Source: Bacilli bacterium
GTDB taxonomy: Bacteria; Bacillota_I; Bacilli_A; RF39; UBA660
Reading direction: 5' to 3'
Assembly (NCBI GenBank): GCA_017934595.1
Contig: JAGBJG010000007.1
Span: 1 to 64,000 of the forward strand
DNA: 64,000 nt
Shown here: in pieces, positions 36,983 to 43,777 of the stretch
Position numbering within the stretch: position 1 is the first letter of the stretch
Layout: each line of letters begins with the position of its first letter
Position numbers and translations under genes: made by a program
Notes under the pieces: generated by a model
The model's input: the letters and a program-made list of their open reading frames with translations, nothing else
Told to the model about the DNA's origin: nothing
Databases searched by the model: none

Positions 36983-38749
36983 ATGTCAATAATTAAACAA
37001 ATGGATGAAATACTTGCTAATAAAATAGCAGCAGGTGAAGTAGTAGAAAGATGTGCTTCTGTTGTAAAAGAACTAGTTGAAAACGCAATTGATGCTAAAG
37101 CTACAGAAATAACTGTTGAAGTATTAGAAGCAGGTACTAAAGAAATTAAAGTTACTGATAATGGTATAGGTATGGATAGAGAAGATGCAGTTAACTGTTT
37201 TAATAGACATGCTACATCTAAATTAATAGATGAAGAAGATTTATATCATATAAATACTTTAGGATTCCGTGGTGAAGCATTAGCCTCTATCGCATCAGTA
37301 TCTAAAGTAGAATTAAAAACAAGTCAAGGTGAAGTTGGAACTATAGTAAAAATAGAAGGTGGCAAAGTAATAGATGTAATTAACGGTGATGCTAGACGTG
37401 GTACTATTATTACTGTAAAAGATTTATTCTATAATACACCTGCTAGACTTAAATATATGAAAAGTATGTATACAGAATTATCTAGTATTACAGAATATCT
37501 AGATAAGATTGCTTTATCATATCCTAATATTAGAATATCTTTATACAATGAAGGAAATAATATTATAAAGACAGATGGATCTGGCGATTTACTTAAAACA
37601 ATTAAAGAAATATATGGTGTAGAAGTAGCTAAGAAAATGATTCCTATTAAAGGAGAAAATTCAGATTATGAAATAGAAGGTTATATTAGTATGCCAGAAA
37701 TTCATAGAAGTAATAGAAATAATATGACACTATTTGTTAATGGTAGAGTTATAAGAAATAGTTATATCAATACAGTAATAAACGATAGCTATAGTAATTA
37801 TAAACCTGATACAAGATTTCCTATAACAGTAATAAATATTAAATGTGATCCATCATTAATAGATGTTAATATCCATCCTACTAAAATGGATGTAAAATTT
37901 TCTAAGATGGAAGCGTTAGAAGAATTAGTATCAAGTGTTATAGTAGAAGCTATTAAGCATAAAACTTTAATACCAGAAAGAGAAGTTGTTAAAGTAAAGC
38001 AACAACCTATATACACATCTTTATATGTTAATAAAGTTCAAGAATCTTTAGATTTAGAAAGAGAATCTATAGTTAGTGAAGATGTATCTGATTATATAGT
38101 TAATGATGATTTAGTAGTAGAAAAGGAAGATATAAAACCTATCGAAGACCATGTAGATGAAGAAAAAATACCCGAATTATATCCAGTAGGTTTAGTATGG
38201 GGAACATTTATTATATGCCAAAATGAAAAAGGAATGTATTTAATAGATGAACATGCCGCAAAAGAAAGAGTTAATTATGAAATATTTAAAGAGAAAATGA
38301 ATAATCCAGATCATAAGCAAAATGCACTAATAATTCCTATAACTATTGAATATACAGCAAGTGAATTTATGATAATTAAAAATCATTTTGATGTTTTAAA
38401 GAATATTGGTTATGAAATAGATGAATTTGGTGTTAACTCTATTATCATTAAAGCTACACCTGCATGGCTTAAAGGTGATGATGAAGTAATAGTAAGAAGT
38501 ATTATTGATATATTAATTGATGAAGGTGACCATTTTGATATGGCGAAGTTTATGGAACATGCATGTGCCACAGCAGCTTGTAAAGCATCAATTAAAGCTA
38601 ATACAAATATTACTATTGAAGAAATGGAAAACTTAATTAATGATTTAAGAAAGTGCAAAAATCCATTTCACTGTCCACATGGTAGACCAACTATCATATG
38701 TTATACAAAAGAAGATTTAGAAAGACAATTCAAAAGAAGTGGTTTTTAA
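36983..38749 (+). CDS. mutL: DNA mismatch repair protein MutL
   Basis: 588 residues. The N-terminal GHKL ATPase shows IAAGEVVERCASVVKELVENAIDA, DNGIGM, RHATSK and LGFRGEAL. The C-terminal endonuclease half has the DxHA-x2-E-x4-E metal motif (DEHAAKERVNYE) and CPHGRPT, so it is an incising MutL, as in bacteria lacking MutH. It is in an operon with vanZ; mutS is not next to it, unlike the usual mutSL pair. Confidence 0.96.
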   Translation: MSIIKQMDEILANKIAAGEVVERCASVVKELVENAIDAKATEITVEVLEAGTKEIKVTDNGIGMDREDAVNCFNRHATSKLIDEEDLYHINTLGFRGEALASIASVSKVELKTSQGEVGTIVKIEGGKVIDVINGDARRGTIITVKDLFYNTPARLKYMKSMYTELSSITEYLDKIALSYPNIRISLYNEGNNIIKTDGSGDLLKTIKEIYGVEVAKKMIPIKGENSDYEIEGYISMPEIHRSNRNNMTLFVNGRVIRNSYINTVINDSYSNYKPDTRFPITVINIKCDPSLIDVNIHPTKMDVKFSKMEALEELVSSVIVEAIKHKTLIPEREVVKVKQQPIYTSLYVNKVQESLDLERESIVSEDVSDYIVNDDLVVEKEDIKPIEDHVDEEKIPELYPVGLVWGTFIICQNEKGMYLIDEHAAKERVNYEIFKEKMNNPDHKQNALIIPITIEYTASEFMIIKNHFDVLKNIGYEIDEFGVNSIIIKATPAWLKGDDEVIVRSIIDILIDEGDHFDMAKFMEHACATAACKASIKANTNITIEEMENLINDLRKCKNPFHCPHGRPTIICYTKEDLERQFKRSGF

Positions 38750-38761
38750 ACTTCTTTTTTC
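38732..38761 (+). terminator. Rho-independent terminator of mutL
   Basis: AAAAGAAG and CTTCTTTT pair across the stop codon with an inner TTT/AAA, then T residues. Confidence 0.8.
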
Positions 38762-38762
38762 T

Positions 38763-38789
38763 TTCGACAAGATTCGACATTATTCGACA
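38763..38789 (+). promoter_or_regulatory. Three tandem Spo0A-box-like repeats
   Basis: TTCGACA occurs at 38763, 38773 and 38783, exactly 10 bp apart. This is the reverse complement of the Spo0A box TGTCGAA. The third copy covers the -35 position of the promoter whose TATAAT is at 38806-38811 (17-bp spacing), as in Spo0A-activated sigma-A promoters. Spo0A control of the following gene is inferred. Confidence 0.72.
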
Positions 38790-38821
38790 ATAATATATGC
38801 TAAAGTATAATTGGTGATGAT

Positions 38822-39259
38822 ATGAAAAAATATATAATTTTAACAGTAGTATCAGTAGTATTATCTTATTTAATGGCTAAAATAATATTTATGGAATATA
38901 AAAGTGATAAAGTAATCGCATTATCAAAAACTGGTGATAAATATTATTTTTTACAATTAGGAGTATATAGTAGTTATGATTCGATGTTAGATAATTCAAG
39001 TAAACTATCTAATTATATATATACAAATAATGATGATAAATATTATGTATTTACATGTATTAGTAAGAATAAAGAAAATATGAATAAAATGGAATCATAT
39101 TATAAAGAATCAGGATTTGATACATATGTTAAAGAATTTATTTTAGATGATAATGAACTTTCTAATACAGTTTCTAAAGTAGATTTATTACTAAGTGAAA
39201 CAACTGAAGGTATAGGTGAATTATGTAAAAAAAGTATAGAAAAGTATAAGGAGGGATAA
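38822..39259 (+). CDS. SpoIIB-like membrane protein with SPOR-like domain
   Basis: 145 residues: one N-terminal membrane helix (residues 4-22), then a region resembling a SPOR peptidoglycan-binding domain (YYFLQLGVYSSYDSMLDNSSKLSNY ... YKESGFDTYVKEF). It is located just before radC, where B. subtilis carries spoIIB (spoIIB-maf-radC), and is followed by spoIVFA/spoIVFB as in that cluster. Together with the Spo0A boxes this supports a SpoIIB-type role at the sporulation septum. Sequence evidence alone would be weak. GGTGATGAT precedes the ATG. Confidence 0.68.
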   Translation: MKKYIILTVVSVVLSYLMAKIIFMEYKSDKVIALSKTGDKYYFLQLGVYSSYDSMLDNSSKLSNYIYTNNDDKYYVFTCISKNKENMNKMESYYKESGFDTYVKEFILDDNELSNTVSKVDLLLSETTEGIGELCKKSIEKYKEG

Positions 39260-39260
39260 T

Positions 39261-39938
39261 ATTAAAATAAAAGATATTAGTCTTTCAGAAAGACCTAGAG
39301 AAAGATTAATTAATAACGGAGTAAATAGTTTATCTAATGAAGAATTAATTTCATGTATTTTAAAAGATGGAACTAGGAATATAAATGTTAAAGAAATATC
39401 TAATATGATTATAAGTAGTGTATCAAATATCCAAGAATTAAGATATCTTAATTATGAAGATTTAGTTAAAATAAAAGGAGTAGGTATATCTAAAGCATGT
39501 AGTCTACTTGCAGCTATAGAATTAGGTAACAGAATAAATACAAAAATAAATAGTTTAAATAATATTAAATTTGAAGATGTGTCTATTGTATATGAATATT
39601 ATAAAAATAAGATAGGATATTTAAAACAAGAAGTATTTTGTGTAGTATATTTAGATTCTAAAAATATGATTATTAAAGAAAAAGAATTATTTAAAGGAAC
39701 ACTTAATTTTAGTATGGTCCATCCAAGAGAAATATTTAAAGAAGCTTATATAGTAGATGCAGTATCAATAATATTAATTCATAATCATCCGAGTGGTAAA
39801 GTATTTCCTAGTAAAGAAGATATGAATTTGACTAAAAGAATAATTGAAGTAGGCAACATAATGGGAATAAAAGTATTAGATCATTTAATTATAGGAACTA
39901 ATAAGTATTATAGTTTTTTAGAAAATGGTGATATTTAA
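39261..39938 (+). CDS. radC: RadC-family JAB/MPN protein, apparent ATT start
   Basis: 225 residues. Conserved N-terminal IKDISLSERPRERLINNGVNSLSNEELI, a helix-hairpin-helix (IKGVGISKACSLLAAIELG) and the JAMM metal motif HNHPSGKVFPSKED. RadC is widespread but its function is unresolved. The conserved N-terminus has no in-frame ATG, GTG or TTG between the stop at 39237-39239 and the ATG at 39405, which would delete 48 residues. AAGGAGGG at 39248-39255 points to ATT 39261 as initiation codon, one base after the preceding stop. Confidence 0.85.
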   Translation: MKIKDISLSERPRERLINNGVNSLSNEELISCILKDGTRNINVKEISNMIISSVSNIQELRYLNYEDLVKIKGVGISKACSLLAAIELGNRINTKINSLNNIKFEDVSIVYEYYKNKIGYLKQEVFCVVYLDSKNMIIKEKELFKGTLNFSMVHPREIFKEAYIVDAVSIILIHNHPSGKVFPSKEDMNLTKRIIEVGNIMGIKVLDHLIIGTNKYYSFLENGDI

Positions 39939-39971
39939 ATAATTTATATCATATGATTTACTGGTGATGAT

Positions 39972-40502
39972 ATGAAAATAAGTAACTTTATTTCTAAAGT
40001 ATTAATAACTTTAATAATTGTATTAGTAGTATTAATTGGCAGTAGGAAAAGTACAAGTTTTAAGATGAATATATATAAAAATGTATATGATGATACCATA
40101 TCATTTGCTTATTTAAATACTTTATATAATAAATACTTTGGTAATATACTTCCTTTTAAATTAGATTTAGGTGTAACACCTGTATTTAATGAAACATTAA
40201 AATATAAAAATAAGGAACCATATTTAGATGGAGTTAAATTAGAAGTGGATACCAATTATTTAGTTCCATCTATAAATAGTGGTTTAGTTATTTTTGTAGG
40301 TGAAAAAGAAGACTTGGGTAATACTGTAATTATATTAGGTGATACAGGTGTAGAAGTATGGTATAGTAATATATCTAATAGTATTAAACTATATGATTAT
40401 GTTACATCAGGCACATATATAGGTGATACTATAGATAATAATTTATATTTAACATTTAAACAAAATGGAGATATTCTAAATTATGAAGAATATATTAACT
40501 AA
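39972..40502 (+). CDS. spoIVFA: SpoIVFA-like M23-domain membrane protein
   Basis: 176 residues: N-terminal membrane helix (about 8-25), then an inactive-looking M23 (LytM) domain (LVPSINSGLVIFVGEKEDLGNTVIILGDTGVEVWYSNI ... YDYVTSGTYIGDT). SpoIVFA holds and inhibits the intramembrane protease SpoIVFB in the outer forespore membrane. The pairing with the overlapping spoIVFB gene makes the call. It is shorter than the B. subtilis protein (264 residues), with a reduced N-terminal part. Confidence 0.8.
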   Translation: MKISNFISKVLITLIIVLVVLIGSRKSTSFKMNIYKNVYDDTISFAYLNTLYNKYFGNILPFKLDLGVTPVFNETLKYKNKEPYLDGVKLEVDTNYLVPSINSGLVIFVGEKEDLGNTVIILGDTGVEVWYSNISNSIKLYDYVTSGTYIGDTIDNNLYLTFKQNGDILNYEEYIN

Positions 40503-41205
40503 AATATATATACATCCTTTTACGTATATCGTGTTATTAATATCTTTAGTAACTGGGTTATTTAAAGAATTAATAACTTTTTTATTTATTATAATTATTC
40601 ATGAGATAGGCCACATAAGTGCTTCTATATTATTTAAATGGAAAATAGATAAAGTATCAATTATGCCTTTTGGATGTATTACTATATTTAGTGAATTAAT
40701 AAATAAACCCTTAATAGAAGAGTTTATAATACTTATATCAGGCCCGTTATTTCAATTTATAAATTATCTAATCTTTAAAGATATAACACCTTATTTTAAC
40801 TATTATAATTATGGACTTTTTATATTTAATATCTTACCCATATATCCTTTAGATGGATATAAATTATATAGTATTATTTTAAATAAAATTATACCTTTCA
40901 AATATACATTGAAGATTATGCTTATTGTATCGATGTTATCTTTAATATTGTTCATAAGAAAAGATTTAATTTATATAGTGATATTACTATTACTTTTAAA
41001 TGGGATAATTAAAGAAATTAAAAATATCAATTATATATATAATAAATTTTTATATGAAAGGTATAGGTATAATTTATATTTTAAAAAAAGAAAAATTATT
41101 AGGAATATTAATAATATGTATAAGGATAAGATACATATCTTTAAGACTAATGATAGATATATTAGTGAAAGAGAAATTTTAGAAAAAAGATTCAAATATC
41201 ATTAA
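40483..41205 (+). CDS. spoIVFB: SpoIVFB-like site-2 intramembrane metalloprotease
   Basis: 240 residues. The zinc motif HEIGHISAS lies in the second helix (near residue 38) and the partner motif NILPIYPLDGYKL provides the third ligand Asp. Five to six hydrophobic segments and a basic C-terminal tail follow. SpoIVFB activates pro-sigma-K in the mother cell. It overlaps spoIVFA by 20 bases, so the inhibitor and protease are made together. CBS domain absent or very short at the C-terminus. Confidence 0.88.
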   Translation: MKNILTKIYIHPFTYIVLLISLVTGLFKELITFLFIIIIHEIGHISASILFKWKIDKVSIMPFGCITIFSELINKPLIEEFIILISGPLFQFINYLIFKDITPYFNYYNYGLFIFNILPIYPLDGYKLYSIILNKIIPFKYTLKIMLIVSMLSLILFIRKDLIYIVILLLLLNGIIKEIKNINYIYNKFLYERYRYNLYFKKRKIIRNINNMYKDKIHIFKTNDRYISEREILEKRFKYH

Positions 41206-41240
41206 ATGATATCTTTTTTGTTTAAAATGATTTTAAAATA

Positions 41241-41249
41241 TGATACAAT
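41241..41249 (+). promoter_or_regulatory. Extended -10 promoter (near-consensus)
   Basis: TGATACAAT, 19 bases before the tagA start at 41269. Confidence 0.5.
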
Positions 41250-41268
41250 TATTTATGAGGATGATGGT

Positions 41269-41979
41269 ATGAGAAAATTATTTGACAAGATGTATAAAGA
41301 AGATTGTGAAGGATTTTACAAAATTTTAAAAAACAATTTAAAAAAAGAAAAGAAAATGTTTGTTGTAACAGCTAATCCTGAAACATTTATGATGTCAGAA
41401 AAAGATGAAGATTTAAAAAATATGTTAGAAGATGATGAAACTACATTAGTACCTGATGGAATAGGTGTGGTTAAAGCTGGTAGAAGTATTAAATATGATA
41501 TAAAGATGAGAATTACAGGTATTGATATTGCATATAAATTACTTGAATATGGTAATGAACTTAAAAAATCAATATATTTATTTGGATCAAAACAAGAAGT
41601 TTTAGATATGATGAAAGATGTCTTAGATAAGAATTATCCTAATCTTAAGATAGCTGGTATGACTAATGGATATGTTAAAGATAAGGATAAAGAATATAAA
41701 AAAATCAGCAAGTTAAATCCAGATATTGTTTTGGTAGCTTTAGGAATTCCTGCTCAAGAAAAATTAATATACAAACATTTAAAAGAATTTAAAAAAGGTA
41801 TTTTTGTAGGTGTTGGTGGTTCTTTTGATGTTATAAGTGGTAGTAAAAAAAGAGCTCCTAAATTTTTCATTAAGTGTAATTTAGAATGGTTATATAGAAT
41901 TGTTAAAGAGCCAAGTAGACTAAAAAGATTTTATAATAGTAATATAAAATTTTTACATGTAGTAAGAAAATATAAGTAG
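41269..41979 (+). CDS. tagA: TagA/WecG/CpsF-family glycosyltransferase (GT26)
   Basis: 236 residues. Family motifs: VTANPETFMMS, LVPDGIGVV, RITGIDIAYKLLE, KSIYLFGSK, NPDIVLVALGIPAQEKLI, GVGGSFDVISGSKKRAPKFF and NLEWLYRI..EPSR. TagA transfers ManNAc to undecaprenyl-PP-GlcNAc, making the wall teichoic acid linkage unit; the UDP-ManNAc-forming epimerase follows 7 bp downstream. Start ATG 41269 with GAGGATGAT. Confidence 0.9.
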   Translation: MRKLFDKMYKEDCEGFYKILKNNLKKEKKMFVVTANPETFMMSEKDEDLKNMLEDDETTLVPDGIGVVKAGRSIKYDIKMRITGIDIAYKLLEYGNELKKSIYLFGSKQEVLDMMKDVLDKNYPNLKIAGMTNGYVKDKDKEYKKISKLNPDIVLVALGIPAQEKLIYKHLKEFKKGIFVGVGGSFDVISGSKKRAPKFFIKCNLEWLYRIVKEPSRLKRFYNSNIKFLHVVRKYK

Positions 41980-41986
41980 GTGGGTT

Positions 41987-43108
41987 ATGGAAAAAATAAA
42001 AGTAATGAGTGTTTTTGGTACAAGACCAGAAGCTATAAAAATGGCTCCTTTAGTTAAGGAATTAGAAAAAAGAGAAAGTATTGAATCTGTGGTATGTGTT
42101 ACTGCTCAACATAGACAAATGTTAGATCAAGTATTACATACATTTAAAATAGTACCTGATTATGATTTAAATATTATGAAACCAGGTCAAACATTAAGTG
42201 AAATTACAACTAATGCTTTACTTGGATTAGAAAAAGTTATTAAAGAGGTAAAACCTGATATTGTATTAGTCCATGGTGATACAACAACTGCACTTGCCGG
42301 TGCGATGGCTGCTTTCTATAATCAAGTAGATATTGGACATGTTGAGGCAGGTTTAAGGACTTATGATAAATATTCACCATTTCCAGAAGAAATGAATAGA
42401 CAAATGATAGATTGTATGGCAGATATGATGTTCGCGCCAACTAACTTAAGTAAGAGTAATCTACTTTCTGAAGGAAAAGATGAAAAGAAAATATATGTAA
42501 CAGGTAATACAGCTATTGACGCTATGTCTACTACAGTAGATTCAAATTATGAACATGAAGTATTCGATTGGATAGGAAATGATAGAATGATTCTTTTAAC
42601 TGCTCATAGAAGAGAGAATCTAGGTGAACCAATGATTAGAATCTTTAAAGCAATTAATAGAGTATTACAAGAACATAAAGATGTAAAAGTAGTATATCCT
42701 ATTCATTTAAATCCAAAAGTTAGAGAAGCTGCAAACTTAGTATTTAAAGATAATGATAGAGTTAGATTAATTGAACCTTTGGATGTATTTGATTTCCATA
42801 ATTTTCAAAATAAGAGTTACATTATCTTAACTGATTCAGGTGGTATTCAAGAAGAAGCACCATCATTAGGTAAACCAGTATTAGTATTACGCGATACTAC
42901 AGAAAGACCTGAAGGTATTGAAGCTGGTACTTTAAAACTTGCTGGTACAAAAGAAGAAGATATATATAAACTTACTAGTGAATTATTAGATGACAAAAAA
43001 ATATATGAATCAATGAGTAAAGCATCCAATCCATATGGTGATGGACATGCAAGTGAATATATAGTTGATGCTATTGAAGAAAAATACAAAGTAAAGAAAA
43101 AAGATTAA
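41987..43108 (+). CDS. mnaA: UDP-N-acetylglucosamine 2-epimerase (non-hydrolysing)
   Basis: 373 residues, GT-B-like fold. Motifs: SVFGTRPEAIKMAPLVKELE, CVTAQHRQMLDQ, VHGDTTTALAGAMAAFY, VGHVEAGLRTYDKYSPFPEEMNR, TAHRRENLG and LTDSGGIQEEAPSLGKPVLVLRDTTERPEG. It converts UDP-GlcNAc to UDP-ManNAc, the donor for the adjacent TagA. Both genes are one operon. It ends directly at the promoter of the second type III unit. Confidence 0.95.
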   Translation: MEKIKVMSVFGTRPEAIKMAPLVKELEKRESIESVVCVTAQHRQMLDQVLHTFKIVPDYDLNIMKPGQTLSEITTNALLGLEKVIKEVKPDIVLVHGDTTTALAGAMAAFYNQVDIGHVEAGLRTYDKYSPFPEEMNRQMIDCMADMMFAPTNLSKSNLLSEGKDEKKIYVTGNTAIDAMSTTVDSNYEHEVFDWIGNDRMILLTAHRRENLGEPMIRIFKAINRVLQEHKDVKVVYPIHLNPKVREAANLVFKDNDRVRLIEPLDVFDFHNFQNKSYIILTDSGGIQEEAPSLGKPVLVLRDTTERPEGIEAGTLKLAGTKEEDIYKLTSELLDDKKIYESMSKASNPYGDGHASEYIVDAIEEKYKVKKKD

Positions 43109-43141
43109 TTGACATATATAACTATTTGTGATAAATTATAT
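43108..43141 (+). promoter_or_regulatory. Promoter of type III unit 2; left copy of a duplicated proS promoter
   Basis: TTGACA (43109-43114), 17-bp spacer, TAAATT (43132-43137). The 34-bp segment matches 43773-43806 with two mismatches. Transcription would begin near 43144, at the first antitoxin repeat. Confidence 0.85.
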
Positions 43142-43143
43142 AT

Positions 43144-43268
43144 GTACTCGAAACACAGGTATGCCACGAGTAGAAATGTGGGATATAAAAATTCTACTTA
43201 TGAAATTTTCTCGCTCTGCAGATTATGCGAGTAATAAGGTCTGTATGTGTTTGTTGTATGTTTTATGT
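43144..43268 (+). ncRNA. Type III antitoxin RNA 2, two pseudoknot-like units
   Basis: Unit 1 has TACTCG/CGAGTA (43145-43150 / 43167-43172) with loop CACA able to pair with TGTG at 43177-43180. Unit 2 has CTCGC/GCGAG (43210-43214 / 43227-43231) with loop GCAGATT able to pair with GGTCTGT at 43238-43244, allowing G-U. The scaffold CTCGC...GCGAGTAATAAG is shared with the antitoxin at 12930-13023 while the pseudoknot strands differ, the expected look of a homologous antitoxin with another specificity. An open frame at 43128-43313 crosses it but is not a believable gene. Confidence 0.75.
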
Positions 43269-43294
43269 AAGAAGGTTTTATACCTTCTTTTTTT
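43269..43294 (+). terminator. Attenuating terminator before toxin 2
   Basis: GAAGGT and ACCTTC pair around a short loop and are followed by eight T, between the antitoxin RNA and the toxin gene, as in unit 1. Confidence 0.88.
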
Positions 43295-43315
43295 GATATG
43301 CGAGGAGGTGTAGTG

Positions 43316-43777
43316 GTGATAATATTAGGCTGCTTATATCATATAAAAGATGAATTTTTTAATTTGGTTAATGATAAGTATTTAATGTTGAATCACGAAG
43401 ATGGTCATTCTAGACCAAATTATTTTATTTTGAAAGAAGAAAAATTTTATTGGGCGATACCATTGTCTTCAAAGGCGGAGAAATATAAAAATATACTTTT
43501 AAAACGTGGGAAAAAGTTTTGTAAAACAATTATAATTACAAAAGTTGGTACATTTAATAATGCAATACTTCTTCAAAATGCTTTTCCAGTAACTGAAGGA
43601 TATGTAAAAAGTGTTCATATATATAGTGGTAAACAATTGATTTTAGATAAAAGTGTTGAAGATGAAATATTAAAAAATTTCAAAAAGATGCTTTCATTAA
43701 AGAAAAATGGTATTAATTTATTTTATCCCAATGTAGATAGGATAAAAATGATTTTAGAAAAAGAATTGGTGCATTGA
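43316..43777 (+). CDS. Type III toxin-antitoxin endoribonuclease 2 (CptN/ToxN-like)
   Basis: 153 residues, clear homologue of the toxin at 12372-12860: shared LY.IKD.(Y/F)F, LM.N.E.G..RP.Y, W.IP(I/L)S.K..KYK, and L(I/L)QN.FPVTE.Y. I chose GTG 43316 (6 bases after AGGAGGT at 43303-43309), which aligns with the other toxin's N-terminus; ATG 43298 lies upstream of that site. The order promoter, RNA repeats, terminator, toxin is complete. Its TGA stop sits inside the -35 box of the proS promoter. Confidence 0.82.
   Translation: MIILGCLYHIKDEFFNLVNDKYLMLNHEDGHSRPNYFILKEEKFYWAIPLSSKAEKYKNILLKRGKKFCKTIIITKVGTFNNAILLQNAFPVTEGYVKSVHIYSGKQLILDKSVEDEILKNFKKMLSLKKNGINLFYPNVDRIKMILEKELVH

Follow-up and report, generated by a model that had tools for sequence, protein, structure and literature searches.

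Introduction

In Bacillus subtilis, the spoIIG and spoIIE promoters carry a TTGACA-like sequence 21–22 bp from the –10 element, with Spo0A boxes lying over the –35 region. The same organism has the gene order spoIIB-maf-radC-mreBCD-minCD-spoIVFA-spoIVFB. In the structure 1LQ1, two Spo0A molecules reportedly occupy tandem boxes. The core of the 0A box is TGTCGAA, in which Spo0A contacts G2, C4, and G5 (PMC3485338). At B. subtilis comK, a 0A box overlapping the –35 represses transcription (PMC3297582), and in a model Spo0A acts on its own gene mainly as a repressor (PMC12090719). For RF39-type Bacilli, sporulation with a reduced gene set is predicted, and the sporulation of uncultured small-genome gut Bacilli has so far been predicted from gene lists only (PMC10868615).

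Here we analyzed a 64-kb stretch of DNA (hereafter the window) from a genome that probably belongs to RF39; its family comprises over 100 genera, with genomes of about 1 Mb. In the window, three tandem 0A boxes precede a SPOR-radC gene cluster. The same arrangement recurs across the genome to which the window belongs (hereafter the own genome) and across uncultured gut relatives, which argues for a real genetic switch and against a chance repeat. Judged from these comparisons, the array appears to be an instance of a Spo0A promoter module that is used throughout the family and varies on a known type.

Results

Sequence analysis revealed that positions 38763–38789 of the window consist of three exact TTCGACA heptads on the + strand (box 1, 38763–38769; box 2, 38773–38779; box 3, 38783–38789), which are joined by the 3-bp linkers AGA and TTA. 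The helical spacing proposed in an earlier note on this DNA is thus borne out as an exact 10-bp period. Read on the – strand, each copy is the 0A box TGTCGAA, and the contacted bases G2, C4, and G5 are kept in all three. The heptad occurs three times in the window, always inside the array, with 1.94 copies expected; genome-wide, the single heptad is not enriched (46 copies vs 118 for the reversed control). Arranged in tandem, the copies go far beyond what chance would produce. With up to three mismatches allowed, the triple pattern matched the own genome 10 times, with some of the matches overlapping, vs none for the reversed-pattern control, and it was matched in 49 of 117 genomes of the family, where the reversed control yielded two matches, both in one genome. 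Three perfect boxes in a row, which the earlier note called unusual, are indeed so in general, whereas among the arrays of the own genome triple boxes are the rule.

A single Spo0A is encoded in the own genome (1.0 Mb, 86% complete), at G000:C16:51697, and the gene on whose presence the earlier proposal hinged is there. The protein scores 250.8 bits against TIGR02875 (cut-off 200), and its Spo0A_C domain scores 133.1 bits against PF08769 (cut-off 25). We assigned Spo0A by REC and Spo0A_C domains above the curated cut-offs together with a conserved recognition-helix region, all of which this protein has. Its DNA-binding domain shares 62 of 113 residues with the Bacillus domain in 1LQ1 and keeps the segment SRVERAxRHAIEV, which we take to be the recognition-helix region (SRVERAMRHAIEV). 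Also encoded are a SigF/G-like factor with a STAS-like protein ahead of it, another small sigma factor, SigK, and SigA, the last named by eye. The sigK gene is split on the – strand into a 119-aa N-terminal part and a C-terminal part about 15 kb apart (L206, 4010–4414 and 19336–19695; G000:C17, about 148010–163695), and the intervening element carries a gene for a 587-aa large serine recombinase-like protein beside the C-terminal part. A split sigK with a recombinase-like gene resembles the skin elements.

Alignment of 52 arrays placed the –10 element at a fixed distance from the boxes. TATAAT-like hexamers are concentrated at an offset of 11 bp past box 3, with a mean of 4.54 matches out of 6, compared with 3.38 at the second-best offset and 2.92 for the highest shuffle mean. 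One base ahead of this consensus –10, a TG is frequent (T in 43 and G in 31 of the 52 arrays at the respective positions). The offset is constant across unrelated targets, including comK, kinase, dinD, and nuclease genes. In the consensus geometry, box 3 lies at about –30 to –24 and box 2 at about –40 to –34; the TCGACA of box 2, which matches TTGACA at five of six positions, ends 21 bp upstream of the consensus –10. A –10 at an offset of 14–16 bp had also been considered and was dropped once the multi-genus comparison placed it at 11 bp.

In the window, the position 11 bp downstream of box 3 holds TGC-TAAAGT (38798–38806, + strand), a probable Spo0A-dependent extended –10 with a weak hexamer (4/6). 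A perfect TATAAT (38806–38811, + strand; 6/6) starts 5 bp downstream of the start of this TAAAGT, and may belong to a second or basal promoter. The earlier note had taken that TATAAT as the –10 and the last box as overlapping a –35 17 bp away. The hexamer is present, and the spacing from the TCGACA of box 3 counts as 16 bp; given that the –10 is conserved at 11 bp over many genes, the overlap of box 3 with a –35 is probably not the operative arrangement.

The same overlap is the basis of an alternative in which the array is a Spo0A operator of the opposite sign, with Spo0A~P covering the promoter and silencing a vegetative SPOR-radC transcript from TCGACA-16-TATAAT. This combination is the top promoter match (11/12) in the scanned interval 38500–43600, and box 3 overlaps its –35. 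As the –35-overlapping box R1 of B. subtilis comK is repressive (PMC3297582), the sign here could be opposite as well, in line with the mainly repressive effects modelled for spo0A itself (PMC12090719). We nevertheless consider repression unlikely. A repressor does not require a fixed spacing from the –10, but the offset of 11 bp is kept across unrelated genes. Moreover, the conserved –10 has no –35-like hexamer 17 bp away, and the promoter would thus be weak unless activated; among the targets are spo0A and candidate kinases of sporulation.

The genes behind the array form a co-directional cluster on the + strand. At the end of mutL, between that gene and the array promoter, lies a terminator-like hairpin (38732–38758, + strand; –7.6 kcal/mol, z –2.66) with a T-rich stretch after it; the consensus terminator scan did not list this hairpin. 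The first gene past the array (38822–39259) encodes a SPOR-domain, SpoIIB-like membrane protein. This assignment holds at the level of the protein family, which combines a hydrophobic N-terminal membrane segment, a SPOR domain (14 of 21 members match PF05036, best 3.1e-7), and an adjoining radC; the window member alone has no Pfam match. A PDB profile search with the protein family gave weak matches only, among them the SPOR proteins 1X60 and 2LFV (E 0.3–0.7), and a scan of the genome contigs with the window protein gave no matches.

The second gene is radC (39261–39938; PF04002, 2.5e-44, on residues from 39405). Its frame is open from an ATT at 39261 just behind a GGAGG, and its first listed ATG is at 39405. 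A RadC-like N-terminus begins at the ATT codon (IKIKDISLSERPRERL), and the segment 39261–39404 is explained either by translation from this rare start codon or by an error in the sequence. On a contig assigned to Patescibacteria (Yes71-31), there is a RadC with 48% identity to that of the window, possibly as the result of a binning error. Further downstream are an M23-type peptidase-like gene, SpoIVFA-like by position (39972–40502; PF01551, 7.1e-10), and an M50 site-2-type protease gene, SpoIVFB-like (40483–41205; PF02163, 2e-12). The spoIIB-like/radC/spoIVF identity suggested for this region is thereby supported. Two more co-directional genes follow with gaps of 0 and 7 bp (41206–41979 and 41987–43108, + strand); by eye they are WecG/TagA-like and UDP-GlcNAc 2-epimerase-like, and they possibly form the end of the operon. 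The next intergenic terminator-like site is at 43269–43289.

A scan for more TGTCGAA arrays, as the earlier note had suggested, found eight besides that of the window. The own genome therefore holds about nine arrays with a 10-bp period, each on the same strand as the next gene. Four precede dispersed DinD paralogs (C15:70892, C17:108654, C17:182126, and C16:98258), and others precede a short HisKA-HATPase kinase (C13:103869), an MgtE-like gene named by eye (C17:176927), MscL (C10:38639, with two boxes further upstream), and spo0A itself (C16:51161, with one exact and one degenerate box). The own genome has six DinD paralogs (NF008573), four of which share the triple-box promoter and a near-identical downstream segment; the triple-box promoter is absent from the other two. 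Three more dinD genes with arrays, one of them truncated, are found in another species of the genus (G296). In the same genus, the SPOR-radC ortholog L224 is preceded by just a single exact box and a degenerate one.

Comparison across genera showed that the boxes are kept at orthologous loci. Of 27 genera, 21 have an exact 0A box upstream of spo0A (0.5% by chance). For the SPOR gene, 30 genomes besides that of the window were compared; 13 of them have an exact box upstream of it (0.4% by chance), and 22 have a box with up to one mismatch (9% by chance). None of the exact boxes upstream of spo0A (27 genera) or SPOR-radC (30 genomes) is in the opposite orientation. Some relatives have one recognizable box only, or none, and SPOR and radC are adjacent in all 30 sampled genomes besides the window's own. 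In other genera of the family, triple arrays precede spo0A, a membrane histidine kinase of about 410 aa, short HisKA kinases, ComK homologs (PF06338, 141.7 bits for one representative), and, in two genera (G112 and G048) at 165–245 bp, AgrB (116.5 bits). Further targets are an MvaI/BcnI-type endonuclease and PD-(D/E)XK transposase-like proteins. The ComK homologs behind arrays in many genera suggest direct Spo0A control of competence, and the arrays at agrB may connect Spo0A with peptide signalling. Two genomes, G097 and G092, have 13–15 array sites each. In G097, several sites with near-identical flanks lie near contig ends ahead of transposase-like genes; arrays may thus travel with repeated elements.

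Across a class sample of 198 genomes, 65 of them with Spo0A, triple arrays are present in 19 of the 65 genomes with Spo0A vs 1 of the 133 without it (Fisher p = 1.3e-9). Without the own family, the counts are 10 of 42 vs 1 of 131 (p = 2.6e-6). As the genomes are mutually related, both p-values are optimistic, and the contrast still spans several families. Within the own family, triple sites are still found in 2 of the 9 genomes lacking Spo0A, several of the nine being incomplete, so the class-level comparison is the better test. The two are G032 and G047, both incomplete and without a detected Spo0A; the site of G047 is perfect, and in both cases the lack of Spo0A is probably due to missing contigs.

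These data also bear on the idea that the repeats bind another regulator, for example one responding to DNA damage, given that arrays precede radC and, in the own genome, four dinD paralogs. As a negative control, the dinD genes of other genera carry exact boxes in none of 22 cases, so DinD control is confined to the window's genus in our sample. Elsewhere, most targets are spo0A, comK, kinases, and agrB; in addition, array presence tracks Spo0A across the class and the array sequence is the exact 0A core. Another regulator is thus very improbable, and a DNA-damage operator based on the dinD and radC targets was rejected on the control. A LexA/SOS operator of the type CGAACN4GTTCG was likewise discarded on inspection, the array being a direct repeat and not a palindrome; no such palindrome was seen in the array promoters of the own genome inspected by eye. 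A chance repeat or functionless local tandem duplication, conceivable as slippage of a 10-bp unit, has a negligible probability. The comparisons have refuted it as the principal explanation: the linkers differ, in-register copies of the heptad turn up at further loci and in other genera but hardly at all in controls, and the array positions relative to the gene are conserved.

Discussion

The evidence makes it highly probable that the array is a Spo0A operator, and direct binding by Spo0A is very likely. We further regard it as likely that the array acts as a Spo0A~P-activated sigma-A promoter of the SPOR-radC-M23-M50 operon, activation being the sign of regulation that we infer. In this putative model, a three-site Spo0A operator is built into a sigma-A promoter and would drive the SPOR (SpoIIB-like), radC, M23, and M50 (SpoIVFA/SpoIVFB-like) genes. 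Spo0A~P would fill the three same-face boxes, presumably in a cooperative manner, from about –50 to –24. The promoter would have no normally spaced –35; instead, box 2 would provide a TTGACA-like sequence 21 bp from the extended –10. Bound Spo0A would then position RNA polymerase, and the operon would be turned on, presumably at sporulation entry.

More tentatively, three boxes at 10 bp, an 11-bp spacing, and TGnTATAAT might constitute a standardized, portable Spo0A promoter cassette in this lineage, which might have moved onto lineage-specific genes (the four DinD paralogs here, nuclease and transposase genes elsewhere); we hold this combined proposal to be possible, somewhat short of probable. 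If it is true, competence, kinases, quorum sensing, and DNA-damage-type proteins would be joined in one hard-wired Spo0A regulon of a 1-Mb genome. The operator would tie spore entry to competence through comK, to candidate Spo0A kinases, and to agrB, and in the window's genus also to DinD. With a readable operator, the genes that Spo0A controls could be predicted from sequence for an entire uncultured family, and the array may offer a strong synthetic Spo0A reporter.

The locus can be compared with four systems of B. subtilis. As in the spoIIB–spoIVFB region, SPOR, RadC, M23-like, and M50 protease genes stand in the same order, whereas no maf, mre, or min genes lie in between and cell-surface sugar genes, identified by eye, seem to come next. 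With abrB and 1LQ1 it shares the heptad core and a homologous DNA-binding domain, in which SRVERA-RHAIEV is identical. However, abrB has one perfect box and others that are degenerate, compared with three perfect boxes here, and the array sits 5' of the –10, unlike the known repressor site of abrB. The long-spacer arrangement of spoIIG and spoIIE may be matched by box 2, 21 bp from the consensus –10 of the 52 arrays; in the window, that position holds the weak TAAAGT, with the perfect TATAAT starting 5 bp later. In contrast to the weak boxes of those promoters, three perfect ones stand in a row here, the arrays mostly come with the TG of an extended –10, and the gene controlled in the window would be SPOR-radC. 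Finally, as at B. subtilis comK (PMC3297582), Spo0A boxes are found at comK homologs in many of the family's genera, where the separate, imperfect activation and repression boxes of B. subtilis are replaced by a compact array.
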